Below are positions 3,386-42,572 of a stretch of 49,275 nucleotides of DNA, one piece after another; position 1 is the first letter of the stretch; each line of letters opens with the position of its first letter. Made by a program: the position numbers and the translations under genes. The notes beneath the pieces were generated by a model. That model was given only the letters and a program-made list of their open reading frames with translations, did not search any database and had not been told where the DNA came from. Source of the stretch: Clostridia bacterium (GTDB lineage Bacteria; Bacillota; Clostridia; Oscillospirales; CAG-272); contig JAFVSI010000015.1 of assembly GCA_017503865.1 (NCBI GenBank), positions 71,175 through 120,449 on the forward strand. Direction: 5' to 3'.

Positions 3386-4078
3386 TTACTTGTTCCTTAG
3401 ATTTATCAATTCGAGCAACGTGGTATTACCAAAAGCTCCAAGCCAGTCCTTCTTAAATCCTTCAATTGAGGTATCGGTAGTTGTATGAGCCAAAAGTCTA
3501 TGCATAACAGAGCTACTAACTGTCGCACACTGAGCTCCCTCAATAGCAACGTCAAGAACTTCTCTGGCAGTCTTAAAGCTCGCCGCAAGGATCTTTGTGT
3601 TTGATTTAGAGACCTCAAATATTTTAGCAATATCCTTTACGCATCTTACACCGTCATCGCAAATATTTTCAAGACGACTGACGTAAGGAGCAACGTAAGT
3701 AGCACCTGCGTTTGAAGCAAGCATCGCCTGAGCACCGGTCAAGATAGCGGTAACAGTTACCTTATAGCCTTCAGAAGAAAGTGCCTTAGTTACCTTGAGA
3801 CCAACGTCGCCAACAGGAACCTTAATAACCGTATTGTTACCGAGAAGGCTGACGAGAGCCTTTGCCTCAAGCATGATCCTGTCAAAATCTTCCTCAGTAA
3901 CCTGAACGTGAAGCTCTTTATCTTTACCGATTATTTCCCTGATCTGCATAAGCAGAGCGATAACGTCACCGCCCTCAGCAGAAAGGATTGTAGGATTGGT
4001 TGTAACACCCTCAATAGGATAATAAGTATTAAAATACTTTATGTCCTCGAGATTTGCTGTATCAAGCAAAATTTTCAT
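3386..4078 (-). CDS. Transaldolase-like protein / fructose-6-phosphate aldolase family
   Basis: A 230-residue short transaldolase of the FSA/MipB type. D6, the TNPT motif (27-30) and Lys86 in IKVPV (the Schiff-base lysine) are all present, as is the C-terminal region of the short subfamily. Members either move a dihydroxyacetone unit between sugar phosphates or split fructose-6-phosphate. The gene lies between the YjbQ-like and NagA-like genes, so it is likely to process a keto-sugar phosphate made within this operon. The exact reaction cannot be told from sequence. Confidence 0.87.
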   Translation of the reverse strand: MKILLDTANLEDIKYFNTYYPIEGVTTNPTILSAEGGDVIALLMQIREIIGKDKELHVQVTEEDFDRIMLEAKALVSLLGNNTVIKVPVGDVGLKVTKALSSEGYKVTVTAILTGAQAMLASNAGATYVAPYVSRLENICDDGVRCVKDIAKIFEVSKSNTKILAASFKTAREVLDVAIEGAQCATVSSSVMHRLLAHTTTDTSIEGFKKDWLGAFGNTTLLELINLRNK

Positions 4079-4154
4079 AAACAGTAATTCCCTTTTTATA
4101 CTCGTTTACACCCCCGAGAAACCTCGAAGGTGTAAACTAAAATTCAAAAATCAA

Positions 4155-4781
4155 TTATTTTCTTGCCTTAAGCTGAAGATCGTAGTGAACATCGTACTCC
4201 ATCTCTTCAGGAAGGAACTTGTGCTTGGTATCAATAACCTCTCCGTTGTTCCACTTTCTGTCCTCAACATCATCAGTTGTACCCATAACTGTAACGTTAA
4301 GCTGTCTGCGACGTGCACGAACGTGGTCCCAGTCAATGAAGTAAATGTGAGCAAACTCACCACCGTCAAGAACACCGTCCTTGATGGTCATTGTTTCGCT
4401 TCTACCAAAGAAAACGGAGCGGAGATGTCCGTCTGTATTCATACTTGTATAGTCACCGGGCTCGCCTACATATCTACCAAACTTGGAGTGGATAGGGCCG
4501 GGGTGACGGTACTGGTGCTCCTCAGCAAAATCAGGGATGAGCTTTCTCATAATGTCGAGAAGGTCGTGCTGAAGGAACTCGAGATCGAAGCTGTCGATAT
4601 CGTGTGAGCACTCCTGAACCATTACGGAGCAAGTTGTGTGGTGAGATGCGATACAAACGGTACCGTTCTTGATACCGGATGCCTTAACGATCTCAACTAT
4701 TTCCTTAGATACATCGTGGAATGTGGGGATCCAACCTCTTGACTGAAGCTCCAATTCCTTCTGAAAAACCTTAAATTCCAT
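4155..4781 (-). CDS. YjbQ/UPF0047 family protein
   Basis: A 208-residue protein with the UPF0047 signature. HHTTCSVMVQE (47-57) corresponds to the family H-T-T-x-x-x-x-x-x-E, and a second conserved block covers HLRSVFFGRSETMTIKDGVL. E. coli YjbQ has a weak secondary thiamine-phosphate synthase activity, but the true role of the family is unknown. This copy is longer than the usual 130-140 residues, because of an insertion after residue 60 and a charged C-terminal tail. Its place inside a sugar-phosphate operon suggests a carbohydrate role rather than a thiamine one (inference). RBS AGGAGA lies just upstream. Confidence 0.82.
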   Translation of the reverse strand: MEFKVFQKELELQSRGWIPTFHDVSKEIVEIVKASGIKNGTVCIASHHTTCSVMVQECSHDIDSFDLEFLQHDLLDIMRKLIPDFAEEHQYRHPGPIHSKFGRYVGEPGDYTSMNTDGHLRSVFFGRSETMTIKDGVLDGGEFAHIYFIDWDHVRARRRQLNVTVMGTTDDVEDRKWNNGEVIDTKHKFLPEEMEYDVHYDLQLKARK

Positions 4782-12922: not shown

Positions 12923-13493
12923 TTATAGTTATTTCCCCCTTCTCAGTAATTATAATATCAACGGATTTGTCGAAAGACTCATACGGAAGCTCTTGAGTTA
13001 AGAGCTTTGAATAGCAGACTCCCATCGCAATACCTTGAAAGTCCGACAAAAATCTGTCGTAGAAGCCCTTACCGTATCCCATTCTTCTGCCACGCAAATC
13101 AAAAGAAAGTGCGGGGACAATACAAAGTGCATCTCCCTCTCCTTTATATACGGGGCTGGTGAGCGGCGGCTCGGGAATAGAATATGCTCCCTCTTGAAGC
13201 TCAGAAATACCATTTATATATCTAAAAGTCAAATTGAAATCATTTGTGTTGCTGACAGGAAACGCCACTTTTTTTCCGTCCTCGAACGCACGGCAGACTA
13301 TCGGTAGAATTTGCGGCTCGCTTTTAACCGGATAATAGGCTAAAACAACGTTTGATTTTAAATAAGCCTCACTATTGACTACTCTATCGAAAAGCAAATT
13401 ATCGGCGGTCTCTCTATATTCTAATGATAGTCCGTTCCTCAAATCAGAAAGCTTCTTTCGTAGCTTCTTTTTAATTTCAGAAATATCACTCAT
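12912..13493 (-). CDS. 5-formyltetrahydrofolate cyclo-ligase
   Basis: A 193-residue YgfA/MTHFS family enzyme that closes 5-formyl-THF to 5,10-methenyl-THF using ATP. An N-terminal KKKLRKKLSDLRNGLS region, VVLAYYPVKSEPQ, and the ATP-binding GRRMGYGKGFYDRFL near residue 135 are typical. It is 3 bp behind the DJ-1 gene and overlaps the CPBP gene, all co-directional with hisS. Confidence 0.93.
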   Translation of the reverse strand: MSDISEIKKKLRKKLSDLRNGLSLEYRETADNLLFDRVVNSEAYLKSNVVLAYYPVKSEPQILPIVCRAFEDGKKVAFPVSNTNDFNLTFRYINGISELQEGAYSIPEPPLTSPVYKGEGDALCIVPALSFDLRGRRMGYGKGFYDRFLSDFQGIAMGVCYSKLLTQELPYESFDKSVDIIITEKGEITINAE

Positions 13494-28780: not shown

Positions 28781-29497
28781 ATGAGCAAAGAATTTTCTTG
28801 CGAGTACGCAATGAGCACTGAAGTTGCTAATATGTGTACAGTTGCAAAGGGCCCTAATCACGGTCCCGCTCCCATTCCCGAAGAGGGCAAATGGGTACAG
28901 GCTAAAGAGATTACAGACATTTCCGCTTACACTCACGGTGTGGGCTGGTGTGCTCCCCAGCAGGGTGCTTGTAAGCTCTCTCTTAACGTAAAGAACGGAA
29001 TCATCGAAGAGGCTCTCGTTGAGACTATCGGTTGTTCGGGTATGACTCACTCCGCAGCTATGGCAGCAGAGATTCTCCCCGGAAAGACAATCCTTGAGGC
29101 TCTCAACACAGACCTTGTTTGTGATGCTATCAATACAGCTATGCGTGAGCTCTTCCTCCAGATAGTTTACGGTCGTTCACAGTCTGCATTCTCCGAGGGC
29201 GGTCTCGTTATCGGTGCAGGTATGGAAGACCTCGGTAAGGGCGAGCGTTCGATGGTTGGTACAATGTACGGAACAAAGGCTAAGGGCGTTAGATACCTTG
29301 AGATGACAGAGGGTTACTGTACAAGAATGGCTCTTGATGCTGATAATCAGGTTATCGGTTACGAGTTCGTTTCTCTTGGAAAGATGACCGACTTCATCAA
29401 GAAGGGTATGGAGCCTAACGAAGCTTACGAGAAGGCTAAAGGCACTTACGGCAGATTTGCTGACGCCGTTAAGTACATAGACCCCCGTAAGGAATAA
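28781..29497 (+). CDS. NifU/IscU-like iron-sulfur scaffold protein with C-terminal extension
   Basis: A 238-residue protein with an IscU/NifU-N domain. C64, C85 (ETIGCSGMTHS) and C114 fit the three scaffold cysteines, and C57 is extra. The C-terminal 100 residues (about 130-238) are not part of a standard scaffold. The protein is coupled to the GGGtGRT gene 17 bp downstream, an arrangement I know from other anaerobes. A role in iron-sulfur or metal handling is expected from the domain, but the client is unknown. RBS AAGGAG. Confidence 0.88.
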   Translation: MSKEFSCEYAMSTEVANMCTVAKGPNHGPAPIPEEGKWVQAKEITDISAYTHGVGWCAPQQGACKLSLNVKNGIIEEALVETIGCSGMTHSAAMAAEILPGKTILEALNTDLVCDAINTAMRELFLQIVYGRSQSAFSEGGLVIGAGMEDLGKGERSMVGTMYGTKAKGVRYLEMTEGYCTRMALDADNQVIGYEFVSLGKMTDFIKKGMEPNEAYEKAKGTYGRFADAVKYIDPRKE

Positions 29498-29514: not shown

Positions 29515-30513
29515 ATGGCACATTTTGAAGGTTATGAAAGACGTGAGGCAAAGATCCTCGCTACTCTTAAAGAATACGGCATCTCCTCTATTGACGAGTG
29601 CAAAGAAATTTGCGATGCTAAGGGAATCGATCCCTATAAGATCACTGAAGAGACACAGCCCATCTGCTTTGAGAATGCAAAGTGGGCATACACAGTTGGT
29701 GCAGCTATCGCTATAAAGAAGGGCTGCACAAAGGCTTCTGATGCCGCTGCCGCTATCGGTATCGGTCTCCAGGCTTTCTGTATTCCCGGCTCTGTTGCTG
29801 AGAACAGAAAGGTAGGACTTGGTCACGGAAATCTCGGTGCAATGCTTCTCTCCGAGGAGACAGAGTGCTTCTGCTTCCTCGCTGGTCACGAGTCCTTCGC
29901 AGCAGCTGAGGGTGCTATCAAGATTGCTCTTAACGCTAATAAGGTTAGAGTTAAGCCCCTTCGCGTTATCCTTAACGGTCTCGGCAAGGACGCTGCTATG
30001 ATCATTTCGAGAATCAATGGATTTACATACGTTCAGACTGAATTTGATCCTTACACCGAAGAGGTTAAGATCATCAAGGAGACTGCTTACTCCAACGGTG
30101 ACAGAGCTAAGGTTAAGTGCTACGGCTCTGACAGTGTTCCCGAGGGCGTTGCTATCATGAGACTCGAGAACGTTGGTGTTTCAATCACAGGTAACTCCAC
30201 TAACCCCACTCGCTTCCAGCACCCCGTTGCAGGAACATATAAGAAGTGGTGCCAGGAGAACGGCGTTAAGTACTTCTCTGTTGCATCGGGCGGTGGTACA
30301 GGTCGTACACTTCACCCCGATAACATGGCTGCAGGTCCTGCTTCCTACGGTATGACTGATACTCTTGGAAGAATGCACGGTGACGCACAGTTCGCAGGTT
30401 CTTCCTCTGTTCCCGCTCACGTTGAGATGATGGGTCTCATCGGTGCAGGTAACAACCCCATGGTCGGAATGACCGTTGCTGTGGCTGTTGCTATCGAAGA
30501 GGCAAGCAAATAA
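29515..30513 (+). CDS. GGGtGRT protein (family of unknown function)
   Basis: A 332-residue protein of the GGGtGRT family, named from the motif seen at residues 259-265 (SGGGTGRTLHPDN). The function is unknown; genes of this family sit next to NifU-like scaffolds in many anaerobes. There are several cysteines (C29, C33, C51, C71, C89, C118, C120) but no standard cluster motif. The last 29 codons and about 230 bp downstream recur at 39037, and part recurs at 40730. RBS AAAGGAGGAG. Confidence 0.92.
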   Translation: MAHFEGYERREAKILATLKEYGISSIDECKEICDAKGIDPYKITEETQPICFENAKWAYTVGAAIAIKKGCTKASDAAAAIGIGLQAFCIPGSVAENRKVGLGHGNLGAMLLSEETECFCFLAGHESFAAAEGAIKIALNANKVRVKPLRVILNGLGKDAAMIISRINGFTYVQTEFDPYTEEVKIIKETAYSNGDRAKVKCYGSDSVPEGVAIMRLENVGVSITGNSTNPTRFQHPVAGTYKKWCQENGVKYFSVASGGGTGRTLHPDNMAAGPASYGMTDTLGRMHGDAQFAGSSSVPAHVEMMGLIGAGNNPMVGMTVAVAVAIEEASK

Positions 30514-30539
30514 TCCTTTATCTACAAGGAGATATTAGC

Positions 30540-30596
30540 GTGATTGTTATACTTATTGCATTGTGGTTTTTTTTAACACTATTAAAAAACAACTAG
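30540..30596 (+). CDS. 18-residue hydrophobic microprotein downstream of GGGtGRT
   Basis: A GTG-started 18-codon frame reads MIVILIALWFFLTLLKNN. It is one hydrophobic segment with a positive-polar tail, so it would be a small inner-membrane peptide. AAGGAG lies eight bases before the start and the gene ends in the same operon before the terminator. A second copy at 39155 keeps the same length, frame and chemistry (MFILLVALWFFYTLLKNN) with no indel. That pattern supports real translation. It is too short for standard gene callers. Confidence 0.62.
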   Translation: MIVILIALWFFLTLLKNN

Positions 30597-30622
30597 AATA
30601 CTGAAAGCAATACGATAAAATT

Positions 30623-30670
30623 GAATGGTCATTGTAGGGGGGACTTCGCGAAGCCCCTGCGGAGCCATTC
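30623..30670. repeat. 48-bp imperfect palindrome, interspersed-repeat-like
   Basis: Nested inverted repeats: outer GAATGG/CCATTC, then GTAGGGG/CCCCTGC, and an inner CTTCG/CGAAG. This GC-rich hairpin sits in the AT-rich 3' region of repeat copy 1 and has no counterpart in copy 2. It looks like a REP- or MITE-type inserted element. Confidence 0.5.
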
Positions 30671-30704
30671 ATAAACGACGCTTACAAAATCACAAATAAA
30701 AAAG

Positions 30705-30746
30705 TTGGACACATCATAAACGTATTTTCGTTCGTGATGTGTCCAA
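30705..30746 (+). terminator. Terminator of the pduL-GGGtGRT operon
   Basis: A perfect 12-bp stem TTGGACACATCA/TGATGTGTCCAA with an 18-nt loop is followed by TATTTTTTG. The same stem recurs at 39313 and 40826. Confidence 0.88.
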
Positions 30747-30780
30747 TATTTTTTGTTTAAAAAACTTATTATACATAGGT

Positions 30781-30810
30781 AAAAGCGGTGAGCCGAGGCT
30801 CACCGCTTTT
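30781..30810. terminator. Terminator of the subtilase-cohesin operon
   Basis: A perfect 14-bp stem AAAAGCGGTGAGCC/GGCTCACCGCTTTT with loop GA, lying 22 bp after the cohesin gene stop. It can act on both strands. Confidence 0.9.
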
Positions 30811-30832
30811 TTATTTAGATTAACTTAAACTA

Positions 30833-33800
30833 TCAATCTTCTTTTTTCTTTGCAACAAATGCTGTGCAAGTTCCGAGAGCCATAACGAGAGCTACGCCTA
30901 CAAGACCTACGGAAGATCCGCATCCCTTCTCTTCGGGAGCTTCGGTCTCGGGAGCCTCTGTTGTTTCAGGAGCCTCGGTTTCGGGAGTCATATCGAATGC
31001 ACATACGTCACAAGCGTAGTTGTTGTCTGCATCCTTATGCTCTGCAAGGTCACCTGTTTCCTCATTACATACAGAACACTTTGCCTTTGCTATACATGTA
31101 GCCTCGCTGTACTTATGAGCCGCAAGGTCGCCATACTCAGCCTCACATACTGTACATTTAGCCTTTGCGATGCAAGTTGCCTCGCCACCGGTATGAGCTG
31201 CGAGCTCTCCGTATTCAGCCTCACATACTGTACACTTAGCCTTTGCGATGCAAGTTGCCTCGCCGCCGGTATGAGCTGCAAGTTCACCGTATTCAGCATT
31301 ACATACCGTACACTTTGCCTTTGCCTTACAAGTAGCTGTACCGCCGGTATGATCTGCAAGCTCACCGTATTCCTTACCACAAGTGCTGCACTTTGCTTTA
31401 GCCTTACAAGTAGCTGTTCCGCCGGAGCAATCATGCTCTTCTGGTTCAGAAGGTGCGGCTCCTCCTCCGCCTGCGGGAGGAACTGCACCACCACCTTCGG
31501 ACGAACCGCCACCACTTGGAGGTGTGGGAGCAGGAGTGGTTACGGGTATCTCTTCAAACTGCTTATAGCCGCAGGCACAAACTCTTTCCTTTTGTCCAAC
31601 TTCTGCAGTGGTTGCCGGCTTAGTTGTTATCCATTCGCCATAGATATGCTCACTCTTGTCAATTTCCTGACTGTTGCAAGCTGTACACGGATGCCAATGG
31701 TGTGTATCGTTATTTGACCATTCTGATGACGGAGTATGAGGAACCACATCATCGTGTGCCTCACAATTCTCAGCAGTACAAGAATGTGCATGTCCTGTTG
31801 AGTCCTTGTAATCCCACGCAGTACCAAATTCATGATCTTTGAGCTTTCCGTAGGATTTGTGACAAACATCACAAAGTGCAAGCACCGTACAAGAGCTTTC
31901 GCCTCCTGAGCAAGCAGCTACATCTTCCTTGTGCTCGCATCCTTCAACTGTACATTTGTGGAAATGCTGTCCGGCATTAAGATCATCGTAGACAGTTGTC
32001 CATTCGGTAGAAATCTTGTGATTGCCCTTAAGATCACCCTCATAAAAGGTATTCGTTTTATCCTTTGAGCTCTCACCACAACGTATACAAGCATAGTAAT
32101 AGGTGTAGTTTTTTTGGCAATCCCCAGCCTCATCCTTTATATAATCTATAGTCTGTGTTTTCTTTGTATAACTATGTCCAAGGGATGGCGTCATCTCAAA
32201 ACCGCAAGAATCACAAGTTTTTTCAGACGTACACGTTTCATTATCTTCTGAATAATGACTCGTCTTATCTTTTAGCGCGTCACAAAGCGTACACTTATGT
32301 GCGTGCTGAGAATTATCTATACTTACCCATTTTGTAGTATCGTAGTTGTGATCACCAAAATCACCGTAAACGGTGTTACAGGTAGAACAAATTGCCTTTG
32401 TTTGGCAGTCCGAAGAACCTCCGGTATGTACGTTTCTACTGTTTGGTTTTTCAGCTCCACATACATCGCAAATATACCAGTGCTCATCAGCACTCTTTTG
32501 CTGCTTGGTGTAACTGTGAGTTATCATTCTCGTATATCCGCAACCGCCATTACAGGTAGTATCACACGCATTATCATACGTATGTGATGCCTTGCTGTAT
32601 ACCTGACCGTCATCAGCTCTGCAGTCATGCCAGTGATAAGTTGTATCATATTCCCAAGTAGTTCCCTCGGTGTGAACGTGATCAAGCTTTTGCTGAATTA
32701 TATATCCGCATCCACTTACAGTGCAGTATTTAGCAGTATCCTCTGTTGCTTCGTCAACGTTAGGAGTATGCATCACTACAGTATCGTGTGCATCACAGTA
32801 TATACACTTATGAGCATGTCCATCAGTGCTCTTGTATCCCCATGTACCTGTGTCGTAACTATGATCGCCAAGAAGTCCATACGAATTATGACAAACAGAA
32901 CAAGTTGCGAGAGTCTGACATGTCGCAATACCACCCGAGCAATTGGAGACACCGGTCTTATAAGTACATCCGGTAACAGTACACTTGTAAAAATGCTGGT
33001 TATTCTCGCTCGTATAATCCTCACTGATTACATGATTACCGGCCTCTGTGCTTGTATACCACTTATCGGTAGCATCTGCATCATTCTTTGCACTACCGCC
33101 GCAACGTGAGCAATCATACCAATAGGTATTATATTCACTGCAGTTTGATGCCGTTGTTCTTATAGCATTATCAATAACATCGGTATAATTGTGTCCCTTA
33201 GGAGCTATAGGTGATTCGGTCGTTTGTGTAGCAAATGCCGCATTACCAAACGTAGCTGTGTAAACTGTTTTTCCGTTTGACGTACAGTCCGAGTCACTTA
33301 CCTTTGTGGTAACAGTTCCCTTTTCGGTCTCCTTGTGCATATTATCATACAAGCAGACTCTTGTTGCCGTGCAAACGGTATTCCCCTCACTCCAAGCATA
33401 AGTAGGCTCGCCGAACTTGTGTCCAAGCTTCTCAATGGTCTTATTTTCTCTTGAGAGCTCAACTAAGCACTTAGAACAGTAAACTACACTATCATAGCTT
33501 CCGTCAATAGTACAGCTGGCTTCTACTCTGTTTTCTACAACCGGAGCCTTGCCTATGTGCTTAAGAGGAATAGTCACGTCAGCATCCACAAAATTAAGCA
33601 TGATGGGCTTTGTCAAGGAATCACTAAGACCGCTTCCGCTTATTTCAAAGTTTGCAAGTGAATCTTCACAATCCGACTTTGAATCAAACGTTAGCTCAAT
33701 AATATCCTCGGCATCTGCAATATCAGTTGTAGATATTATAGAAAACTTAAAAATACCATTGGCTATGCGAGTTGTGTTAACGTTAAAGAATGTTGGTTCA

Positions 33801-34861
33801 AATTTCTTTTCATAAGAAACATAGGTAAGCTTGTCCGCATCAAATTTAAGCACAAAGTCACCCGCACCAAGATGCGAATCCGACTCAAGCTTGACCTTAA
33901 GAGTTACCTTGCCTGTTTCCTTATCTATTTGAGAAGAAAGCAGCATCGCAGGGCTGTCCTCGGCATACGTTCCATCAAAGGAGATATTCACCCTGGTTGT
34001 ATATCCGCTACAGGATATAGGGTTTAAGTTTAGGTCATAAAGCTCGGTAACCTTAAGCTTAATGTCCGAGCTTTCGGTTAAATTCTTTTTAGTTCTAAAT
34101 TTTATACTAACAAGGTCATATTTGCTGTTATACTTAGTTCCAACAAAGGAGACCGCCACAGAGCCGTCAAGATTTGAGTTAACGTCTGTAACCTTTTCAT
34201 CAAGAAATTGCCCCTTTGTAAGCTCTACAAATTCAAACAGATCCTTGTCGTATTGAATTTCAAATGAGCCCGATGCTATCTGATAACTGCTAAGACGATA
34301 GCTGAGCGTAAATTCTTCTCTTACGGCAGTAGAAACACTTGCGGTTGAAGAAAGCGAGCAGGTCTTTGTAGCTGTGCTCTCTGTAATCTTAAAGGAACAA
34401 CGAGAGCCCACGATATCCAACGCATCAAGCTCATTGTTATAGGCATCGCTAACAACAATATCAAAATAGGTGTTTCCTGCCTCTGCCGTGCCGTTTACTT
34501 TATAATAGAAATAAAACAGTTGTGTTTTTTCTTCGCTTCCCTTGCCATCGAATATATATGAAAGCTGTACGCGTCCATCCTTATTTGAGGAGTCGTATGC
34601 CACACATCCCACCTTGTTATAGACACTCTGAACGGTAACCTTTGAAGTATCGTAATGAACCGCAACGGTTAGTGCAGAGAGATCGGTAAGATCATCCAGA
34701 TATACGTAGCAATATGCATACCCGTTTTGCGCCACAGTGGTTGACGTGGTTGCATACACAGGCCTTGTACCCTCGGCAGAAGCACCGAGGGTACAAAGAC
34801 TAAATGAGCTTAATATAAATATCAGGGCAAGAAAAGTCGATAAAGCTTTTCTGAATTTCAT
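30833..34861 (-). CDS. Surface scaffold protein with three cohesin-like domains and Cys-rich repeats
   Basis: A 1342-residue exported protein. A signal peptide (1 to about 29) is followed by three cohesin-like beta domains (about 33-165, 170-300 and 315-435). The long middle part (about 440-1090) has many CxxC and H-rich repeat units such as HKCTLCDA and HWHDC. A Pro/Gly/Ser linker comes next, then about five near-identical 26-residue Cys units (HTGG-ATC-AKAKC-VC-YGEL), an acidic TEAPET linker and a C-terminal GCGSS-hydrophobic-KKKED tail. Cohesins bind dockerins, and the gene just upstream ends in a dockerin. The tail suggests membrane or wall anchoring. The start lies one base after the upstream stop codon. 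Confidence 0.85.
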   Translation of the reverse strand: MKFRKALSTFLALIFILSSFSLCTLGASAEGTRPVYATTSTTVAQNGYAYCYVYLDDLTDLSALTVAVHYDTSKVTVQSVYNKVGCVAYDSSNKDGRVQLSYIFDGKGSEEKTQLFYFYYKVNGTAEAGNTYFDIVVSDAYNNELDALDIVGSRCSFKITESTATKTCSLSSTASVSTAVREEFTLSYRLSSYQIASGSFEIQYDKDLFEFVELTKGQFLDEKVTDVNSNLDGSVAVSFVGTKYNSKYDLVSIKFRTKKNLTESSDIKLKVTELYDLNLNPISCSGYTTRVNISFDGTYAEDSPAMLLSSQIDKETGKVTLKVKLESDSHLGAGDFVLKFDADKLTYVSYEKKFEPTFFNVNTTRIANGIFKFSIISTTDIADAEDIIELTFDSKSDCEDSLANFEISGSGLSDSLTKPIMLNFVDADVTIPLKHIGKAPVVENRVEASCTIDGSYDSVVYCSKCLVELSRENKTIEKLGHKFGEPTYAWSEGNTVCTATRVCLYDNMHKETEKGTVTTKVSDSDCTSNGKTVYTATFGNAAFATQTTESPIAPKGHNYTDVIDNAIRTTASNCSEYNTYWYDCSRCGGSAKNDADATDKWYTSTEAGNHVISEDYTSENNQHFYKCTVTGCTYKTGVSNCSGGIATCQTLATCSVCHNSYGLLGDHSYDTGTWGYKSTDGHAHKCIYCDAHDTVVMHTPNVDEATEDTAKYCTVSGCGYIIQQKLDHVHTEGTTWEYDTTYHWHDCRADDGQVYSKASHTYDNACDTTCNGGCGYTRMITHSYTKQQKSADEHWYICDVCGAEKPNSRNVHTGGSSDCQTKAICSTCNTVYGDFGDHNYDTTKWVSIDNSQHAHKCTLCDALKDKTSHYSEDNETCTSEKTCDSCGFEMTPSLGHSYTKKTQTIDYIKDEAGDCQKNYTYYYACIRCGESSKDKTNTFYEGDLKGNHKISTEWTTVYDDLNAGQHFHKCTVEGCEHKEDVAACSGGESSCTVLALCDVCHKSYGKLKDHEFGTAWDYKDSTGHAHSCTAENCEAHDDVVPHTPSSEWSNNDTHHWHPCTACNSQEIDKSEHIYGEWITTKPATTAEVGQKERVCACGYKQFEEIPVTTPAPTPPSGGGSSEGGGAVPPAGGGGAAPSEPEEHDCSGGTATCKAKAKCSTCGKEYGELADHTGGTATCKAKAKCTVCNAEYGELAAHTGGEATCIAKAKCTVCEAEYGELAAHTGGEATCIAKAKCTVCEAEYGDLAAHKYSEATCIAKAKCSVCNEETGDLAEHKDADNNYACDVCAFDMTPETEAPETTEAPETEAPEEKGCGSSVGLVGVALVMALGTCTAFVAKKKED
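31089..31425. repeat. 78-bp tandem repeats within the cohesin gene
   Basis: About four and a half copies of a 78-bp unit, encoding the 26-residue cysteine module near the C-terminus, follow each other with high nucleotide identity. Such repeats expand and contract easily, so copy number probably varies between strains. Confidence 0.8.
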
Positions 34862-34862
34862 A

Positions 34863-37800
34863 TTACATCTCCAAGGTATTTACGTTTCCGTTGATGTACT
34901 GGAGAATGCGAAGTGCTTCCATACTGTTGAGCACACCGTCACCATTGAGGTCTGCGCGACGGAACTCATCATCAGTAAGAAGTCTTTCCTCGTTGATAGA
35001 CTGCATAAGCATAAGCGCATCCTTTGTGGTAACGACTCCGTCACCGTCAACATCGCCCTTGCGAGAGATAGACGAGGCATCCTTTACCAAGACGGTGTAA
35101 GGAGCATCAGCACTTCCCTTTGCTATGGTGTTGCGTCCGTCCGATGCAACAATATAATATTCAATTCCTGCAAGAGTAACGTCGCTTCCAAAAATTGTAG
35201 CGCTATATTTATCACTCTGCTTTGACATATTAAGTGTCTTCCACTCATCAGCACCAACGGTTCTGTAATAAAGCGTTACGTTTGCAAGCTTCATGTTATC
35301 GCTTGCGGTACAGGAGATAACGAGGTTGTTGCCTGCATAGCCCTGATTTACAGGAGTGTGGTAAACGGAAGGAGCAAGAGTATCTACTGCGGTGCAGTAA
35401 ACCTTACCTGCAGGAGCAGACTCGGAGAAGTCGGAAAGAACGACTGTAAATGTATACCAATAGGTAACTCCGGGCTCTGCATTGTCGTCAACGAAAGAGG
35501 CTGTTTCAGGAAGAAGAACAGTAGGATTGATCTTTACGTAGTTACCGTCCTTGCTCGTCGAACGATAGATGTTGTAACCCATAAGAGTTGCGTAATCGTC
35601 CTGCACCCAAGTAAGCTCGATACCTGCATCGGTTGCGTTTGCAAAGAGGTTCATTGCCATTGCTGCCGTGGTATCAATGTTGAATACGTAAAGCTGATTT
35701 TCACCGTGAACGGTCTTGGTAGCGTCATCGGCTGCACATGCGCCCTTAACCTGCATAAACTGAAGTCCGTTTTCAATGTACGCCTTGAGGGAGTAAGTAC
35801 CAACCCATTCGGTTTCGCTTACGAATGCACCTTCAACCTTATAATCTGCATAAGGAGCGATCGTGCCGAAGAATGCACTTACATCCTTGGTGGTATCCAT
35901 AGCCTTGTTGAAGGTTACACGAACGGTGATTTCTTCTTTGCCGATAGTGGTAATCTGTTCGCCATCTTTGTTGAAGATTTCAACACTTACGATATGAGGA
36001 TAAAGTGCGGAAACATCACTACAAGATCCGAATACATCAACCGTAGGCTGACCGTTCTCATCAAGGTAATTGGAAATTACTTGGTTAGCATACTCTTGAT
36101 ATCCTGCAGAGAAGGCGTTGTTAGAAGCCATGCTCTTCTTTTCAAAAACCAACTCCAACAAGTCTTGAGGATTTTTGTCATCCGCAGAAACGAAGAAATT
36201 GTTTGTGGTAGTTCCCTTGAATGTTATTGCGTAATTTTGATATATTTCGGGAGAATGCTCGCTATACAGGATGTTGTTGGTGAATGTAGTCGTCGTTAAT
36301 TTCGGGTAGTTCGCCGCCAACATCACAATGTAGTTCGAATTCATTGTTGTACTGCTTATTTCGGAAGCATAAGCATTTAAATTCAAGTAGGAGTTTTCAA
36401 CGGAAGAAAAGTTTAATTCCAAACTACTGTCGTATTTTGCTTTTCCCGCATCGTATACAAGGGTTCTATCGACTTTTCCGCTTCCATTGTAATTAATGTA
36501 CGAATTTCTGAGTACACCTGTACCAGTAGTATAAAGGTTTATTGCATCGACATAGTTCATCGTTAACGAACCAGAAGAATAAACATTAACTTGGCAAGCA
36601 AATACGGCATCGCGCTCCGAAGGATAAATTTCAATCATATTTTCTTTAGAGCCTTCAAAGATCAACGTTCCATATACAGAGATTGCAGGAGAGCTGTAAT
36701 ATTCTCTGTCATCATAGAACTGAATGCGGCATCCTTCCTCAAACGTTACAGTAACGCCTGCGGTAATCATTACATTCTCGCCAACGATATAAAGACGATC
36801 GTTGGTGAATACAGTGTCCTCGGCAATAATGCTCGGCAGGTGATAACCGCTACTTACGTTGAATTGCGCCTGCTGTCTGCCGTCATCCTCGTAAACGGTC
36901 TTATCCTCGGTATCAAGTCCGTTCGTATAAGTGAAGCGGATATTGAAATTTACGAGATAGTCGTTAGGACAGTTAGCATCTACAACGATTTCGAAATACT
37001 GATCGCCGGATTCTCTTACGGAGTAAGTACCGATATCGGAGAGCTTCATCGTGGGATTCACGAAGGTGAAGTAAGGATCAACAAGATCCATGCCGCGATT
37101 AGTGTCAATAGATACGTTTACGTTAGATGCAACACCACCACGGTTGTGAAGAGAGATGTAAAGACGAACGGTTTCGCCTGCATCAATCACGCCGTTGCCG
37201 TTGTTATTGCTGCTAATAGATGTGCTATCGTCAATGGAGTAATCATAAAGATTTACATAGGGCTTCGGGATTTGCGTCAATGCCTCATAAACGTTCGCTA
37301 CGGAATGATAGCCATCAGTATCCTTGGTCAGATAGTTGTAGGGATTGATCGTACCCGTGTTCACGATTTGCGATTGCAGATACTTGGTAGAATAAGTATT
37401 TCTGTCGGGATATGCGCTTCTGAGAAGTGCTGCAATAGCAGAAACTGTAGGTGCTGCCATCGAAGTACCGTTCAGCTCGGCATACTGATTGCCGGGCCAA
37501 CAAGAAGGAACGGCTTCACCAACTGCATATACCTCATACTCGATAGAGTTGTAAGGATTGTGGTCATAGTTAGAGAAGGAAGATACTGCGCTACCATCAT
37601 GATTGGTACTCATAACACCGATAACGTAAGGCAGAGCCGCAGGATAGGAAACCTTTACGACATCACAGGTCTTACAAGCGAGATTGTTACAAGCGCCATC
37701 ATTACCTGCGGCTGCAACGAGAACACAGGTGTTATATGCATTTTCAAGTGCTTCTTCAACTGCAATAGAAATGAAAGAACCACCGAAGGACATATTGATA

Positions 37801-38726
37801 ACGGAAGCACCGTTCATGTATGCATATTGAATGGCTTCGGCAATATCAGAGTTGTTGAAGTAACCCGAGGAGTTACCAGCCTTAATGCACATAACCTTAC
37901 AGTTATATGCAATACCTACGCCACCGATATTATTGTTTTCTGCCGCAATAATACCTGCAACGTGCGTACCGTGTCCGTTATCATCCATAGGATCGTTATC
38001 GTTACCAACGCAGTCCCAGCCATAAACGTCGTCGATGTAGCCGTTACCGTCATCGTCCTTACCGTTGTCAGCAATTTCTGCGGTGTTGATCCAAATGTTG
38101 TTACGAAGGTCAAGGTGATTATAATCCACACCGGTATCGATAACAGCTACGATCACGTCGGAGCTACCGCCGGGATGCTTGCCGTTCTTCTTTACTTCCT
38201 CCCAACCTTCGGGAATCTTATGGGTGTGGTGATGCTTATGCTTTTCATAATCGGGGTTATTCGATACATCAGCAGTAGAAGCATCAGCGGTCGTACCCAT
38301 TATGTAGTCGTAGTCAACCTTCTCAAACACTCCAAGCTCGCGAAGATAGGTTACGGTTTCTACCGTATCCGCATCTGCCTTAAGCTCTACGGTGTACCAA
38401 GTCGACCCGCTATACAAAGCGGTTGCCGAAACAAGGTCGAGCTGAGAAAGAACGTTATCGTTCATTTCGCCATCGTACTTAACGAGAGCAACGCCCTCGT
38501 TGTAAGTACCTTTTTCGGGAACAGCATCACTACGAGTCGAGGTCGAAAGCTGCTCGACCTTTGCATCGTCGTTCGTGTTCGTATCCGAAACCACATTGTT
38601 TAGGGCATTGTTTTCACTAATGCCGTCATTAATGACGTTTGCCACTTCTCCTACGCCCTGCGCACAAGAGCTGAGAAGCATACAAACAGCCATCATTACG
38701 GACAAAAGCTTAACTGTTTTTTTCAT
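34863..38726 (-). CDS. Lipoprotein subtilase (S8) with C-terminal type I dockerin
   Basis: A 1287-residue exported protease. The signal peptide ends in a lipobox (LLSSC, C21). A prodomain-like region (about 75-140) precedes the S8 domain with D197 (VIDTGVD), H252 (GHGTHVAG) and S422 (NGTSMAAP). Beta-rich domains follow: a CARDB-like part (about 490-620), a beta-helix-like part (about 640-850) and Ig/fibronectin-like parts. Residues 1222-1287 are a type I dockerin with two calcium loops (GDVDGDGVVTTKDALMLMQ and ADLNGDGVLNSMEALRI). It likely docks on the adjacent cohesins. GGAGG precedes the ATG. Confidence 0.92.
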   Translation of the reverse strand: MKKTVKLLSVMMAVCMLLSSCAQGVGEVANVINDGISENNALNNVVSDTNTNDDAKVEQLSTSTRSDAVPEKGTYNEGVALVKYDGEMNDNVLSQLDLVSATALYSGSTWYTVELKADADTVETVTYLRELGVFEKVDYDYIMGTTADASTADVSNNPDYEKHKHHHTHKIPEGWEEVKKNGKHPGGSSDVIVAVIDTGVDYNHLDLRNNIWINTAEIADNGKDDDGNGYIDDVYGWDCVGNDNDPMDDNGHGTHVAGIIAAENNNIGGVGIAYNCKVMCIKAGNSSGYFNNSDIAEAIQYAYMNGASVINMSFGGSFISIAVEEALENAYNTCVLVAAAGNDGACNNLACKTCDVVKVSYPAALPYVIGVMSTNHDGSAVSSFSNYDHNPYNSIEYEVYAVGEAVPSCWPGNQYAELNGTSMAAPTVSAIAALLRSAYPDRNTYSTKYLQSQIVNTGTINPYNYLTKDTDGYHSVANVYEALTQIPKPYVNLYDYSIDDSTSISSNNNGNGVIDAGETVRLYISLHNRGGVASNVNVSIDTNRGMDLVDPYFTFVNPTMKLSDIGTYSVRESGDQYFEIVVDANCPNDYLVNFNIRFTYTNGLDTEDKTVYEDDGRQQAQFNVSSGYHLPSIIAEDTVFTNDRLYIVGENVMITAGVTVTFEEGCRIQFYDDREYYSSPAISVYGTLIFEGSKENMIEIYPSERDAVFACQVNVYSSGSLTMNYVDAINLYTTGTGVLRNSYINYNGSGKVDRTLVYDAGKAKYDSSLELNFSSVENSYLNLNAYASEISSTTMNSNYIVMLAANYPKLTTTTFTNNILYSEHSPEIYQNYAITFKGTTTNNFFVSADDKNPQDLLELVFEKKSMASNNAFSAGYQEYANQVISNYLDENGQPTVDVFGSCSDVSALYPHIVSVEIFNKDGEQITTIGKEEITVRVTFNKAMDTTKDVSAFFGTIAPYADYKVEGAFVSETEWVGTYSLKAYIENGLQFMQVKGACAADDATKTVHGENQLYVFNIDTTAAMAMNLFANATDAGIELTWVQDDYATLMGYNIYRSTSKDGNYVKINPTVLLPETASFVDDNAEPGVTYWYTFTVVLSDFSESAPAGKVYCTAVDTLAPSVYHTPVNQGYAGNNLVISCTASDNMKLANVTLYYRTVGADEWKTLNMSKQSDKYSATIFGSDVTLAGIEYYIVASDGRNTIAKGSADAPYTVLVKDASSISRKGDVDGDGVVTTKDALMLMQSINEERLLTDDEFRRADLNGDGVLNSMEALRILQYINGNVNTLEM

Positions 38727-38754
38727 AAGTCATTACCTCCAAAACAAGCAATTT

Positions 38755-38760
38755 ATTATA
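38755..38760 (-). promoter_or_regulatory. Possible -10 element of the subtilase-cohesin operon
   Basis: A consensus TATAAT (minus strand) lies 29 bp upstream of the subtilase ATG. The -35 region 17-18 bp upstream (TTAAAT) is poor, so an activator may be needed. Confidence 0.5.
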
Positions 38761-38968
38761 GCTTGTATTATTTACTACATTTAAGTGTATCACAAAATAT
38801 GTAAGATTTCAATAGTTTTGTAAAAAATTAACTAAAACAAAAGCGCAACTTTTCCGCAAACTCTTTGACCACATTATGTACGAACACATTAAAACGCGAT
38901 ATAATGTTTTCAGAAAATACGCAAACGATGTGTTCAGCGAATATGATTTTATGGTTCAAAAGCTCCTT

Positions 38969-38989
38969 AAGTCTTATATAATAAGACTT
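38969..38989. repeat. Perfect 9-bp inverted repeat with ATA spacer
   Basis: AAGTCTTAT and ATAAGACTT flank ATA. It lies in the otherwise geneless stretch 38761-39036, upstream of repeat copy 2. It could be an operator or a weak hairpin; I see no gene attached to it. Confidence 0.45.
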
Positions 38990-39038
38990 TCTGGGAAGTC
39001 TCCCCGCTCTGAAGCCATTAAAAGTTGCCTACTGCACT

Positions 39039-39128
39039 GAGATGATGGGACTTATAGGAGCTGGTAACAACCCCATGGTTGGTATGACTGTTGCAGTTGC
39101 AGTTGCTATCGAAGAGGCAAGCAAGTAA
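39039..39128 (+). pseudogene. 3' remnant of a GGGtGRT gene (29 codons)
   Basis: The frame reads EMMGLIGAGNNPMVGMTVAV and ends VAIEEASK-stop, identical in protein to residues 304-332 of the intact gene. It differs at 12 codons, all of them synonymous. No upstream part is present. Silent-only divergence shows that it came from a working gene that had been separate for a long time before truncation. Confidence 0.88.
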
Positions 39129-39154
39129 TTATTTGATAATAAGGGGATACGGGC

Positions 39155-39211
39155 ATGTTTATACTTCTTGTTGCACTGTGGTTTTTTTATACACTATTAA
39201 AAAACAACTAA
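39155..39211 (+). CDS. Second copy of the 18-residue hydrophobic microprotein
   Basis: ATG-started and reading MFILLVALWFFYTLLKNN, with AAGGGG eight bases upstream. Compared with copy 1 at 30540, the core ALWFF and the tail TLLKNN are the same, and changes elsewhere swap one hydrophobic residue for another. It stands behind a gene remnant here, so its own expression is doubtful, but it is the main evidence that the frame is conserved. Confidence 0.55.
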   Translation: MFILLVALWFFYTLLKNN

Positions 39212-39312
39212 AATACGGAAAGCAAGACGGTGAAATTGAATTGACCTCGTAGGTTAAATTCCCGAATCGCCGCATGGCTCATCGCCTCATACAAGTTAAT
39301 CAATAAAAAAGT

Positions 39313-39353
39313 TGGACACATCATTTTGGGCTTTTGCCTATGTGATGTGTCCA
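39313..39353 (+). terminator. Terminator of repeat copy 2
   Basis: An 11-bp stem TGGACACATCA/TGATGTGTCCA is followed by TTTTTTA. Confidence 0.85.
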
Positions 39354-39398
39354 TTTTTTATTTACATATAAAAATTTATGTCACTAAAGTTTTTAACA

Positions 39399-40229
39399 TT
39401 ATCCTAAAGTACTAGCCCACATAATGAAGCGGATAAAAATGTAAACTAGAATAGCAATTGGGATTAAGCATCCGATCCTTTTAAAGATTGTTATTACTTT
39501 GTTTTTATATTCTACTTCAGCTTGTATGGCTTTTTCAGCTTCTTTCTTTTGCTCTTGATCGACTATTTCTTTCCTTTTTATGTCTATGGCATAATTTATT
39601 TCTTCTCCGTATCTCTCGCCAAATAAACTCTCAACATTAAATTCAAAGTCCTGAGTCACACCTATCATGATAAAGCGACCTATCAAATCGGCGAATCGAT
39701 CAGACATAACAGGATGGGATTTCTTTTGATAAATATCAGAATAAGGAAAAAAATTCTTCATAAACCTATGATGTTCTGGGGTATTCAAAATATCGCTTTC
39801 TATCAATTCTCCATCTAGTCCGCGAGATCTAGTCATATAGGCACTGAAAACGTTTACTATTTCTTTGTCGGATAAATGTTCACTTGTGCCATCCATGAAT
39901 TCGACGAGTATCTCTTGGATTATCACATTTGAAATGGTATTATCATACCAAATACCGCTGAAATTTGCAACAGCAAGCGTGTCTTTTTCAATTGGACCGG
40001 TAAGCTTTTTAGAAACAGTGCTGTTTCCATCGCGGTCTGTAACAATATCGACTACATCATTATAAGGACAATAAGTAAAGGTTATATATTTTATGTCTTT
40101 TTCGCTAGAGTTGTAAAATAAAGTTTCAATATCTACTCTATCCTTGTAGCCTCGTTCTCCTGGCACAAACTTATTGTCTGTGGGATTTTGAAGTCCCCAA
40201 TACGAACTTAAAATTTCAATAGCTGCCAT
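39399..40229 (-). CDS. Unknown protein with C-terminal membrane anchor
   Basis: I do not recognise this 276-residue protein. The first 220 residues are soluble and mixed alpha/beta, a charged helix follows (about 215-245, rich in E and K), and one membrane segment closes it (about 250-272). Such tail-anchored proteins with a cytosolic body occur in small defence or stress cassettes, but no motif supports that here. The start at 40229 has AGGAG; upstream in-frame codons lack one. It is divergent from the Xre gene at 40392. Confidence 0.78.
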   Translation of the reverse strand: MAAIEILSSYWGLQNPTDNKFVPGERGYKDRVDIETLFYNSSEKDIKYITFTYCPYNDVVDIVTDRDGNSTVSKKLTGPIEKDTLAVANFSGIWYDNTISNVIIQEILVEFMDGTSEHLSDKEIVNVFSAYMTRSRGLDGELIESDILNTPEHHRFMKNFFPYSDIYQKKSHPVMSDRFADLIGRFIMIGVTQDFEFNVESLFGERYGEEINYAIDIKRKEIVDQEQKKEAEKAIQAEVEYKNKVITIFKRIGCLIPIAILVYIFIRFIMWASTLG

Positions 40230-40391
40230 TTTCTTTCTCCTTTTGTTTGAAAATTCAAATTGTTTCGACAAAATAATGTCGTTTGATCAATTGTAACATA
40301 TACTTTTTATTTTGTCAACTATTTTAATACAAAAAATCAACCAAATCCACACAAATAATGAGTAAACTAAATTTGTACGGGAGGTATAGTT

Positions 40392-40685
40392 ATGGTTGAT
40401 TTTGGAAAAAGGCTTAAAAAACTACGTTTAGAAAGTGGTTATACACAACAACAATTAGCCACAAGACTTGGAATAACCAAATCCGTGGTAAGCTACTACG
40501 AGCTTCAAGAAAGGTATCCATCACCCGAAGTTCTAATTCGATTAGCTCACATTTTCAATGTAAGCACAGATTATTTGTTAGGATTAGAAACAACGGAAAT
40601 GATTTCCCTTTCAGGATTGGATGCTGAGGATATCATAACGATCAAAAGAATGATAGATGCCTTGCGTCAAAAAAACAAAAGTTAA
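40392..40685 (+). CDS. Xre-family transcriptional regulator
   Basis: A 97-residue protein with a standard N-terminal HTH (YTQQQLATRLGITKSVVSYY) and a short C-terminal part. It probably represses itself and the divergent gene at 40229 through the 160-bp AT-rich region between them. GGGAGG lies upstream of the ATG. Confidence 0.92.
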   Translation: MVDFGKRLKKLRLESGYTQQQLATRLGITKSVVSYYELQERYPSPEVLIRLAHIFNVSTDYLLGLETTEMISLSGLDAEDIITIKRMIDALRQKNKS

Positions 40686-40729
40686 CACTATTTCTTAAAA
40701 ATGATATATTAGACTTGCGTACATCACAT

Positions 40730-40780
40730 ATTGGTACGACTGTTGCGGTTGCGGTTGCTATCGAAGAGACTAGCAAGTAA
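40730..40780 (+). pseudogene. Older 3' remnant of a GGGtGRT gene (16 codons)
   Basis: The frame reads IGTTVAVAVAIEETSK-stop, matching the last 16 residues of the intact protein except for V-I, M-T and A-T changes. It is shorter and more decayed than the remnant at 39039, and the microprotein is absent behind it. Confidence 0.78.
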
Positions 40781-40825
40781 TTGACTTTTCGTAAGGTTAA
40801 CTTGTAAAACAAATAAAATAAAAGT

Positions 40826-40866
40826 TGGACACATCATTTTGGAGTAATTCCCTTTTGATGTGTCCA
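40826..40866. terminator. Terminator of repeat copy 3
   Basis: An 11-bp stem TGGACACATCA/TGATGTGTCCA is followed by TTTATTATT. It also lies just behind the convergent esterase gene and may serve it. Confidence 0.8.
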
Positions 40867-40870
40867 TTTA

Positions 40871-41974
40871 TTATTCATTAAGTAATTTTTTTAAGGTGGG
40901 CAAAAGTGCCTCTGCCATTCTCAAAAATCCAAGAGAATCGGGATGACTGTTATCAACAGTACCGCATTCTCCTCTTTCAAGCTCACCAAAGCAGCCGTAA
41001 CAGTCGATTATATATATATTCTCGTCACCAAGCGCCTTTGCCCTCTCAATGGTTTCAAATATGACCTCTCTGCGTCTCAAGTGTCCGTCTCTGCTTTGAT
41101 ACCCATTGATTGTCGGCATAGTCATCATAATTATAGGTGTTGTGGGATTTGCATTTCTTACCGTTTCGTAAAGTGCAAAATGAGTGTCCTTCAAATACTG
41201 TAGCTGGGAAGCATTATGGTCGTAATCAAGCACGTATACCGATGCATCCTGTGCAGCAATATACTCAGCTATAGTCCTCTCCCCTTTGGCACTTCCGGCA
41301 AATCCAAGATTTATGATGTCGGTATCAAGCATTCGGGAAAGTCTGTTTATATAATCGTCTCCGGGCTTTGAGGCACATCCGCCCTGAGTTATAGACGAGC
41401 CGTAAAACAGTATAGGCTTTGAGTGCTTATACTCTTTAGGTGCTTCTACGATGCAATCCTTTTTCAAGCCCACGTACATATTTTTAATACCACTGTAAAG
41501 CGGCAAGAATATTTCAGCTTGATATGAGCCCTGCTTTGCCTCGTACGGCTTCTTTATTCCGTCAAACGTTATAACTCCATTACCGCCAAAAGAGGGGTCA
41601 GCAGACGTGATTTGTTTGTATGAGGGCATTATTGTTCCTGCAAAAGCATTGTTGGCGTAAATGGCAAAGCCATATCTTCCTGCCATGGTCATATGAGCAA
41701 AGGGCACCTCAAAGGGTTCTTCTGCACGAATAGCTACATAGGGAGAATCTGTTATAAAGCGAACTCTACCGCCCGCAGTATGCTTTGAGAGATGCGACAC
41801 TCCCGCACTTGTAGCATCGGCAGCATCCTTTGCCATACGTCGGAAAAGTCCTTCTTCCTCAGAATAAAAAACACCGTGTATAGAAAAAGGAAGCTCTCTT
41901 ACCGAAAACCATTCTATATCTTCGGGTGCGACAAACGTAGTGTCAAAATTTTTATCAATTTTTCTAATATCCAT
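40871..41974 (-). CDS. SGNH/GDSL-type esterase with N-terminal beta domain
   Basis: A 367-residue protein. The N-terminal half (to about 180) is a jelly-roll-like domain. The C-terminal half is an SGNH hydrolase with the nucleophile block LFYGSSITQGG (S194), a GFAGSAKGE block and the catalytic D341/H344 in DNSHPD. The layout resembles carbohydrate esterases that remove acetyl groups from sugars. No signal peptide is seen, so it is cytosolic. Confidence 0.88.
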   Translation of the reverse strand: MDIRKIDKNFDTTFVAPEDIEWFSVRELPFSIHGVFYSEEEGLFRRMAKDAADATSAGVSHLSKHTAGGRVRFITDSPYVAIRAEEPFEVPFAHMTMAGRYGFAIYANNAFAGTIMPSYKQITSADPSFGGNGVITFDGIKKPYEAKQGSYQAEIFLPLYSGIKNMYVGLKKDCIVEAPKEYKHSKPILFYGSSITQGGCASKPGDDYINRLSRMLDTDIINLGFAGSAKGERTIAEYIAAQDASVYVLDYDHNASQLQYLKDTHFALYETVRNANPTTPIIMMTMPTINGYQSRDGHLRRREVIFETIERAKALGDENIYIIDCYGCFGELERGECGTVDNSHPDSLGFLRMAEALLPTLKKLLNE

Positions 41975-42161: not shown

Positions 42162-42572
42162 ATGAGCAACGAAATTGGCACTATGACACTTGAAGAGCGT
42201 CACAATCAGGTAGAAAGCTATCTTGGAAAAGAGGCGACTATTGAGATAGACCGCCCGATTGGGTACGTTCATCACAAGGGAGAAAAGACCTTAGTGTACC
42301 CGATAAACTACGGATTTATTCCAAACGTTTTTGGCGGCGATGGCGAGGAGCTTGATGTGTTTTTAGTGGGCATAGATAAGCCGGTTAAGTCCTATACAGG
42401 AAGAATAATCGGAATTGTTTACCGTGCAGACGACGTAGAGGATAAGCTCGTTATGGCTCCGTCAGAAAAAATCTTTTCTGCTGAAGAAATCGCACGTGCC
42501 GTATATTTTCAGGAAAAGTATTATAAGACAACTATTCGTGCTCTTGACGGCTCATTGGCAGAGGTTAATTAA
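42162..42572 (+). CDS. Short family I inorganic pyrophosphatase-like protein
   Basis: A 136-residue protein with the family I core: IEIDRPIGY, YPINYGFIPNVFGGDGEELD (metal-binding aspartates) and DDVEDKLVMAP. It hydrolyses pyrophosphate if fully active. It is about 40 residues shorter than the usual 175, lacking part of the N-terminal strand with the first lysine. I regard it as a compact clostridial variant rather than a truncated gene, as the start has AAAGGA and a clear promoter. Confidence 0.87.
   Translation: MSNEIGTMTLEERHNQVESYLGKEATIEIDRPIGYVHHKGEKTLVYPINYGFIPNVFGGDGEELDVFLVGIDKPVKSYTGRIIGIVYRADDVEDKLVMAPSEKIFSAEEIARAVYFQEKYYKTTIRALDGSLAEVN

Follow-up and report, generated by a model that had tools for sequence, protein, structure and literature searches.

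A GGGtGRT gene end in Clostridia as a probable attachment hotspot with two stacked integrase-less elements

The 3′ end of the GGGtGRT gene is very probably an attachment hotspot in Clostridia, and a 49,275-nt stretch from a Clostridia bacterium of the CAG-272 lineage (assembly GCA_017503865.1, contig JAFVSI010000015.1, positions 71,175 to 120,449; hereafter the window) most likely holds two stacked site-specific elements without an integrase at this site. Element 1 (8,615 bp, 30424..39038, + strand) lies between the first and second copies (R1 and R2) of the gene end, and element 2 (1,692 bp, 39039..40730, + strand), whose right end is eroded, follows directly. According to the proposed mechanism, small integrative elements would enter the final ~90 bp of the GGGtGRT gene by site-specific recombination. 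Each element would carry its own gene tail (codon 304 to stop) and a downstream hairpin, and autonomous members would add a gene for an Xer-like tyrosine recombinase behind the hairpin. After integration the gene would be intact and end in the tail of the element, and the displaced original tail would form the far element end; repeated events would stack elements in one orientation. The two members in the window would have lost their integrase or never had one.

The GGGtGRT gene of the window (29515..30513, + strand; PF14057, E 1e-191) is intact and represents the presumed integration target. R1 runs from codon 304 to the stop (30424..30513, + strand; tail profile 1-93, 95 bits), occupies the position of the left attachment site (attL) and was probably supplied by element 1. 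With the sequence beyond the gene end, the R1 repeat covers 30423-30638 on the + strand and recurs at 39038-39253 (+ strand) with 81% identity over 216 gap-free nucleotides. R2 (39039..39128, + strand) would be a displaced tail acting as the right attachment site (attR) of element 1 and as attL of element 2. In a comparison of 29 codons R2 and R1 differ in 12, all of them synonymous and none non-synonymous, and R2 therefore appears to have once ended a working gene before it was displaced. R3 (40731..40782, + strand; profile 41-92, 40 bits), a putative attR remnant of element 2, is reduced to the terminal stretch of the gene (52 nt, reaching two past the stop codon) with two amino-acid changes (bases read by eye), and looks like the oldest remnant. 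Direct repeats comprising the target gene's 3′ end flank the element, and the target is restored. A first-pass annotation of the window had already described three tail copies with a terminator hairpin in the same direction; these were found, but the second copy starts at 39039 instead of 39037 and the third is truncated at 40731.

Each tail copy is followed by a 61-nt hairpin repeat (30695, 39302 and 40815). The first left-end hairpin, GGACACATCA..TGATGTGTCC with A/T flanks, is located at 30707..30744 (+ strand; −29.7 kcal/mol and z −8.1 for the fold of 30695-30760), the second at 39314..39352 (+ strand; −30.3 kcal/mol, z −7.6), and a third hairpin at 40827..40865 (+ strand; −22 kcal/mol, z −5.9). 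When the 2.14-Mb genome of this bacterium was searched with R1 (E ≤ 0.001), only these three places matched, and the palindrome GACACATCA-N6..28-TGATGTGTC was likewise present only at the three window sites (reversed control, 0). Dispersal of the repeats away from GGGtGRT, which the annotation had named as a finding that would speak against its reading, was therefore not seen in this genome. With three copies only, the hairpin was ruled out as a common terminator of the genome. A simple terminator scan left all three hairpins unreported, presumably due to stem mismatches, and listed an ordinary terminator at 30781-30810. The annotated microprotein behind the first two copies corresponds to an 18-codon open reading frame (ORF) at 30540..30596 (+ strand, GTG start), in the left end of element 1 after R1, and at 39155..39211 (+ strand, ATG start) after R2. 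Both small ORFs are preceded by AAGG(A/G)GA and share 13 of 18 residues (72%). The small ORF was rejected as a general companion of tails, as among the matches listed for the other fetched loci there were only weak and short ones.

Relatives contain orphan copies of the same gene end. Using the last 29 residues as query (E ≤ 1e-4, cut contig edges excluded), orphan GGGtGRT tails were found in 23 of 146 family genomes (counted from the listing). In 18 of these 23 genomes the contig also carries GGGtGRT, whole or in part, and in all 18 the orphans are found downstream of it in the same orientation. With the whole protein as query, orphan 3′-terminal fragments were detected in 8 of 30 genus genomes, some of which have several. 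Among 46 orphan tails with upstream sequence in the fetched loci, 26 start at codon 304-305, with no gene homology in the preceding 60 nt. Because the tail profile was built to begin at codon 304, this count is carried by the 60-nt upstream check and the tblastn starts. In total, 41 tail-bounded intervals were delimited in 22 genomes, four of them ≤45 bp. Partial tails located 1-45 bp after longer tails (loci L039, L042/L043, L052 and L085) resemble traces of imprecise or nested events. Of the 37 longer intervals, seven carry an integrase ORF, truncated in one case, and 30 lack it. An ordinary terminator, unlike the hairpin, follows the last full tail in genomes G118, G044, G084, G071, G160 and G062, as expected for the original end of the host gene.

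Different cargo between the repeats, which the annotation had suggested looking for in related genomes, was indeed observed in the 37 longer intervals. Pfam searches covered 30 of the 158 listed islet ORFs, these 30 from relatives, besides the four of the window. The encoded proteins include surface proteins with leucine-rich, Listeria-Bacteroides and collagen repeats, as well as a GmrSD restriction enzyme, a SIR2-STAND protein, an ABC transporter, a sensor kinase, WYL regulators, Sel1 repeats and metabolic enzymes, and several scanned ORFs have no Pfam match. Phage structural proteins were absent from the 30 scanned ORFs. No relaxase was found in the Pfam scans of these 30 and the window's four, nor among ten islet proteins scanned with PHROGs; the origin of transfer (oriT) was not sought.

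In the genus, the left flank of the locus is common and the right flank varies. The left flank comprises a gene that we take to encode ClpP, together with PTAC and NifU-like genes assigned by Pfam. The NifU-like gene of the window, a host partner in this conserved flank, is located at 28781..29497 (+ strand; PF01592, E 2e-4, slightly under the cut-off), and in each of the 22 other fetched loci with a homolog, this homolog is 84-99% identical and precedes GGGtGRT. The empty site sought by the annotation, with GGGtGRT directly followed by the esterase gene, was not found, but genome G027 has a near-empty one, in which a GGGtGRT tail is followed by a hairpin, a single ORF of ~100 aa, another hairpin and an 81% homolog of the window gene at 42162 (presumably a pyrophosphatase). 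In this locus (L038, ~4000-4600) the ORF between the two hairpins is membrane-protein-like, and the second hairpin shows compensated stem changes (GGACACGTCA/TGACGTGTCC) without a gene tail.

A PF00589 search of 26 genomes revealed a tyrosine recombinase gene directly 3′ of the tail in several of them, which accounts for the missing integrase remarked on in the first-pass annotation; the repeated insertion at the gene 3′ end that it proposed is supported. The product is an Xer-like protein of about 316 aa, in which R160, H251, R254, H277 and Y286, which we take to be the catalytic residues, are invariant in six members. Among NCBIfam profiles NF040815 (XerA/integron integrase; E 7e-40, 137 bits against a cut-off of 220) comes closest to it, and among solved structures XerA (5hxy, E 8e-19). 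The XerA-like match spans nearly the whole protein and therefore leaves little space for an arm-binding domain. The integron integrase model TIGR02249 gave 54 bits against a cut-off of 265, and the integrase gene lies inside the elements, which does not correspond to an integron.

One pattern-based scan of GTDB species genomes with the aligned family returned 54 integrase relatives. A GGGtGRT tail is present upstream of the integrase in all 38 testable relatives with at least 59% identity, at a distance of 95-209 bp in 36 and of 1.0 and 2.1 kb in the other two, whereas no GGGtGRT match was found in the fetched DNA of the 15 relatives with ≤44% identity. In L126 the nearest tail is partial and the intact gene lies immediately before it; L150, which starts at a contig edge, was left out of the comparison. 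For integrases with 35-44% identity (L152-L156 and L158-L160, from Clostridium, Herbinix, Lachnotalea and others), the fetched DNA contains no GGGtGRT and a different target is presumed; repeats sought near 13 of the 15 distant integrases revealed no shared target. The 15 closed integrase-bearing elements are 2.1-15.9 kb long, and 13 also encode a small serine resolvase. The integrase homolog comes first after the tail in 14 of them, with a GmrSD gene in between in L128; the integrase ORF is split in L157 and shortened in L147.

A phage or plasmid origin was considered and rejected. Matches occurred in 399 of 50,697 phage and 947 of 72,556 plasmid records, and the best places all had <60% identity (~30% or less for the ten matches listed of each). 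Three relatives came from a pattern-based scan of IMG/VR: L168 (74%) is tail-bounded as here; L169 (55%), with the integrase at the very start of the contig, has no tail in the contig part examined, and L170 (38%) has none.

As annotated, the window has no integrase: the best match reached E 0.01 over 17 residues at a hairpin, and a resolvase search gave E 0.005 at best, inside the esterase gene. A cognate integrase is located near one end of the autonomous members and is lacking in the members of the window. At E ≤ 1e-60 this integrase is encoded in 10 of 395 family genomes; no close relative was found in the genome of the window, whose ten PF00589 matches all lie on other contigs.

The left end of the elements consists of the gene tail followed by the hairpin, which is present in all 15 closed elements and lies between tail and integrase gene in 14. 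The hairpin stem covaries, with GACCCATCA/TGATGGGTC in L144, L145 and L147, AACACATCA/TGATGTGTT in L148, and GACACATTA/TAATGTGTC in L135. At the opposite side, 26 of 38 right ends contain TATAAT followed by ATGTG within 8-55 nt, compared to a mean of 0.33 and a maximum of 2 in 100 Markov shuffles (16 of 2000 random 200-mers). The ATGTG motif resembles a hairpin arm, and the right arms of L144, L145 and L147 also carry TGATGGG corresponding to their altered hairpin, which suggests that the two ends are coupled. The right arm of element 1 (38882..39038, + strand) comprises GAACACAT at 38882, TATAAT at 38900 and GATGTGTTC at 38927 before the tail junction. A promoter scan of the window listed 29 sites (27.7 expected) and omitted the TATAAT at 38900, for which it listed no fitting −35 hexamer; because the sigma-70 scan is silent here, the argument for a right-arm promoter comes from conservation between genomes. 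RNA antitermination, in which a leader would open the hairpin in the circle-junction transcript, was rejected at equilibrium: in the circle-junction folds of 14 of 15 elements (L157 has no promoter match) the hairpin stood at 0.99-1.00 and leader pairing at ≤0.007, figures that refer to equilibrium folding without co-transcriptional effects.

Several comparisons point to spread of these elements between hosts. In three hand-picked families, right arms are 79-95% identical across genera, against 56-66% identity at the target gene's third codon positions for six host pairs. The right arm of element 1 is 89-91% identical to arms in G041, G152 and G160 from three other genera, and the target genes of the window and G160, the pair computed among these, share 61% of third codon positions. 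In four pairs the integrases are 96-100% identical and the host GGGtGRT proteins 75-89% identical, and the correlation between integrase and GGGtGRT identities in 351 pairs of 27 loci is 0.35. By BLAST, the 38 right ends form one group of 20 and two groups of 3. Right-arm family A is common to integrase-bearing (G008, G022, G123) and integrase-less intervals (G004 twice, G123 first). L147 equals L145 with an internal deletion and both ends kept, and such deletion is a route to integrase-less units. Between L118 and L119, there are 6-10 mismatches per 60 nt in four bins upstream of the tail (up to 22 further up), 3 and 5 per 60 nt from the tail start, and 0 in the last 40 nt.

A number of observations weigh against this interpretation. 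The sequences show the tails, their boundaries, the conserved ends, the association of integrase and target and the spread between hosts, whereas catalysis by this integrase, the exact crossover, a circular intermediate and action in trans on the elements of the window are inferred. Nearly all genomes are metagenome-assembled, with Pseudoruminococcus massiliensis (L148) as one named isolate found to have the full arrangement. The genome of the window is itself a 95% complete metagenome-assembled genome without the cognate integrase, and the genomes used for the interval counts were picked for having orphan tails. One clean boundary fits just the 26 tails: a later start was seen in 16 of 46, and four reach further upstream (G062, G067 and G094 twice). 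Even among the 26, one tail (G015, L044, oriented position 13438) is fused directly to an internal segment of that gene (residues ~172-217), perhaps through an internal deletion or a secondary-site event. Codon differences of 22 tails from the first tail of their own locus were synonymous in 156 cases and not in 48, with 40 of the 48 falling in three apparently indel-shifted tails (G004 7990, G117 and G062). In many genomes, including that of the window, the last tail bears the element-type hairpin, so that the original host end is not visible there. The promoter-like motif is missing from 12 of 38 right arms, and a partially overlapping set of 12 of the 38 was unlinked to any other arm by BLAST. 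A clear junction step was evident in one of seven pairs compared, L118/L119 only.

Tandem duplication of the gene end and neighbouring genes with subsequent partial loss, the alternative offered by the first-pass annotation, would produce three same-orientation copies with similar flanks, and the four tails extending upstream are what duplication would leave. However, the genes in the intervals differ from genome to genome, 26 of 46 tails share one start across genera, the intervals are marked by conserved right arms and an integrase gene, and in six genomes the terminators after the last full tail are unlike those after the intact gene. Since cargo varies between intervals and the ends are conserved, duplication and loss finds no support here, and we give it very little credence. 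Homologous recombination could also bring foreign segments to the conserved gene end without a dedicated recombinase, since the good conservation of this end could provide the homology, and R2 is a diverged, once functional tail. This would not account for the common tail start in 26 of 46 tails, the strict association of integrase and tail (38 of 38 at ≥59% identity versus 0 of 15 at ≤44%) and the conservation of noncoding right arms between genera, and we consider it exceedingly improbable.

A nearly even chance is left to the view that the units in the window are dead remnants, which lost their integrase after integration and never moved in trans; it is compatible with site-specific insertion at the hotspot. 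Decay is suggested by the erosion and two amino-acid changes of R3 and by the genome without a cognate integrase, and other islands are described as decaying to integrase-less tandem units (PMC5704250). Against this view, element 1 has both tails and a right arm ~90% identical to those of three other genera, the codons of R2 are unspoiled, integrase-less intervals outnumber integrase-bearing ones (30 versus 7, n=37), and the window contains no convincing integrase remnant. On the reading of the locus as a site-specific hotspot, element 1 could still be movable by an integrase supplied from elsewhere, because it has kept two complete tails and a conserved right end. The right end of element 2 is eroded, and this element is therefore probably fixed.

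The contents of the two intervals agree with the first-pass annotation. Element 1 encodes a cohesin-domain protein (30833..34861, − strand; PF00963, E 4e-15, two stretches) with a C-terminal membrane anchor (judged by eye) and a subtilase of family S8 with a C-terminal dockerin (34863..38726, − strand; PF00082, E 3e-55; PF00404, E 6e-11). The C-terminal part of the cohesin protein gene contains five tandem 78-bp repeats (31036-31414). The two genes are adjacent (30833-38726) and may represent a surface protease complex as mobile cargo; judging from the domain names, their products could bind each other at the cell surface. At E ≤ 1e-40 the subtilase was found in one of 30 genus genomes, namely its own; a block shared by all relatives would, according to the annotation, have spoken against insertion. 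Element 2 encodes a 290-aa protein (39399..40271, − strand) with a C-terminal membrane helix (judged by eye) and no Pfam or NCBIfam match at E ≤ 0.01, and an Xre-type helix-turn-helix regulator (40392..40685, + strand; PF01381, E 1e-17). For the esterase gene behind R3 (40871-41974), the other genus genomes hold distant homologs only (≤43% identity); therefore, the esterase may be a newcomer too, possibly as part of a third element that has lost its right end.

Staphylococcal cassette chromosome (SCC) elements at orfX/rlmH also form composite tandem islands, recombinase-less members among them, and use the 3′ end of a protein-coding gene, although they rely on serine recombinases and are unrelated. 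By closest profile and structure, the integrase described here is like Xer and integron integrases, but unlike these it is carried by the element itself, behind one gene tail. An integrase of their own, as in integrative and mobilizable elements, is absent from the elements of the window and present in relatives. Integrase-less islands accreting at gene 3′ ends have been described before (PMC5704250, PMC3146451). Cis-mobilizable elements (CIMEs) and tandem accretion resemble the window in that integrase-less units keep attL and attR, are stacked at a conserved gene 3′ end and leave the target intact (PMC5704250). Element 1, with both tails at full length, no convincing integrase remnant and genes for a cohesin protein and a subtilase as its two large cargo genes, corresponds to this description, and element 2, with a truncated attR, does not. 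The target and the integrase family differ from those of the known cases, and no transfer genes were identified among the proteins scanned. The ssrA islands of Dehalococcoides, 15 of which are without an integration module, are also numerous and stand in tandem behind a single gene, and a repeat of that gene's 3′ end bounds each of them (PMC3146451). Their target is a transfer-messenger RNA gene, with a 20-bp repeat and proposed serine recombinases (PMC3146451), compared to a protein gene, a ~90-bp tail plus hairpin and a tyrosine recombinase here. Islands integrated in dusA likewise tie an integrase family to one conserved protein gene in many bacteria, but use the 5′ end of dusA (PMC4482086). 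In open-licence PubMed Central (PMC) literature, we found no description of GGGtGRT as an integration target or of its integrase family, and none of the papers naming GGGtGRT concerned integration, as judged by title and opening lines.

GGGtGRT is listed among iron-responsive genes or proteins (PMC10434189, PMC5395762). Since an element would replace the end and terminator of GGGtGRT, integration could affect expression of this gene. It is possible, if doubtful, that the GGGtGRT tail serves the whole family as an integron-like platform for capture, where integrase-less cassettes with conserved right ends would be collected and moved in trans by a rare Xer-like integrase. The right end would then provide an outward promoter and a hairpin-matching motif, and circularisation would place this promoter before the tail, hairpin and integrase gene, coupling excision to integrase expression. 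The promoter-like site at the right end and the matching palindrome make this regulatory idea testable. The proposed insertion at GGGtGRT would explain the variable region behind this gene between close relatives, and extra GGGtGRT tails offer a simple search handle for accessory genes, such as those for surface proteases, a restriction enzyme and surface repeat proteins. Thus, sequence comparison has pointed to an integration hotspot and its probable integrase family in Clostridia of gut and rumen, which are little studied.

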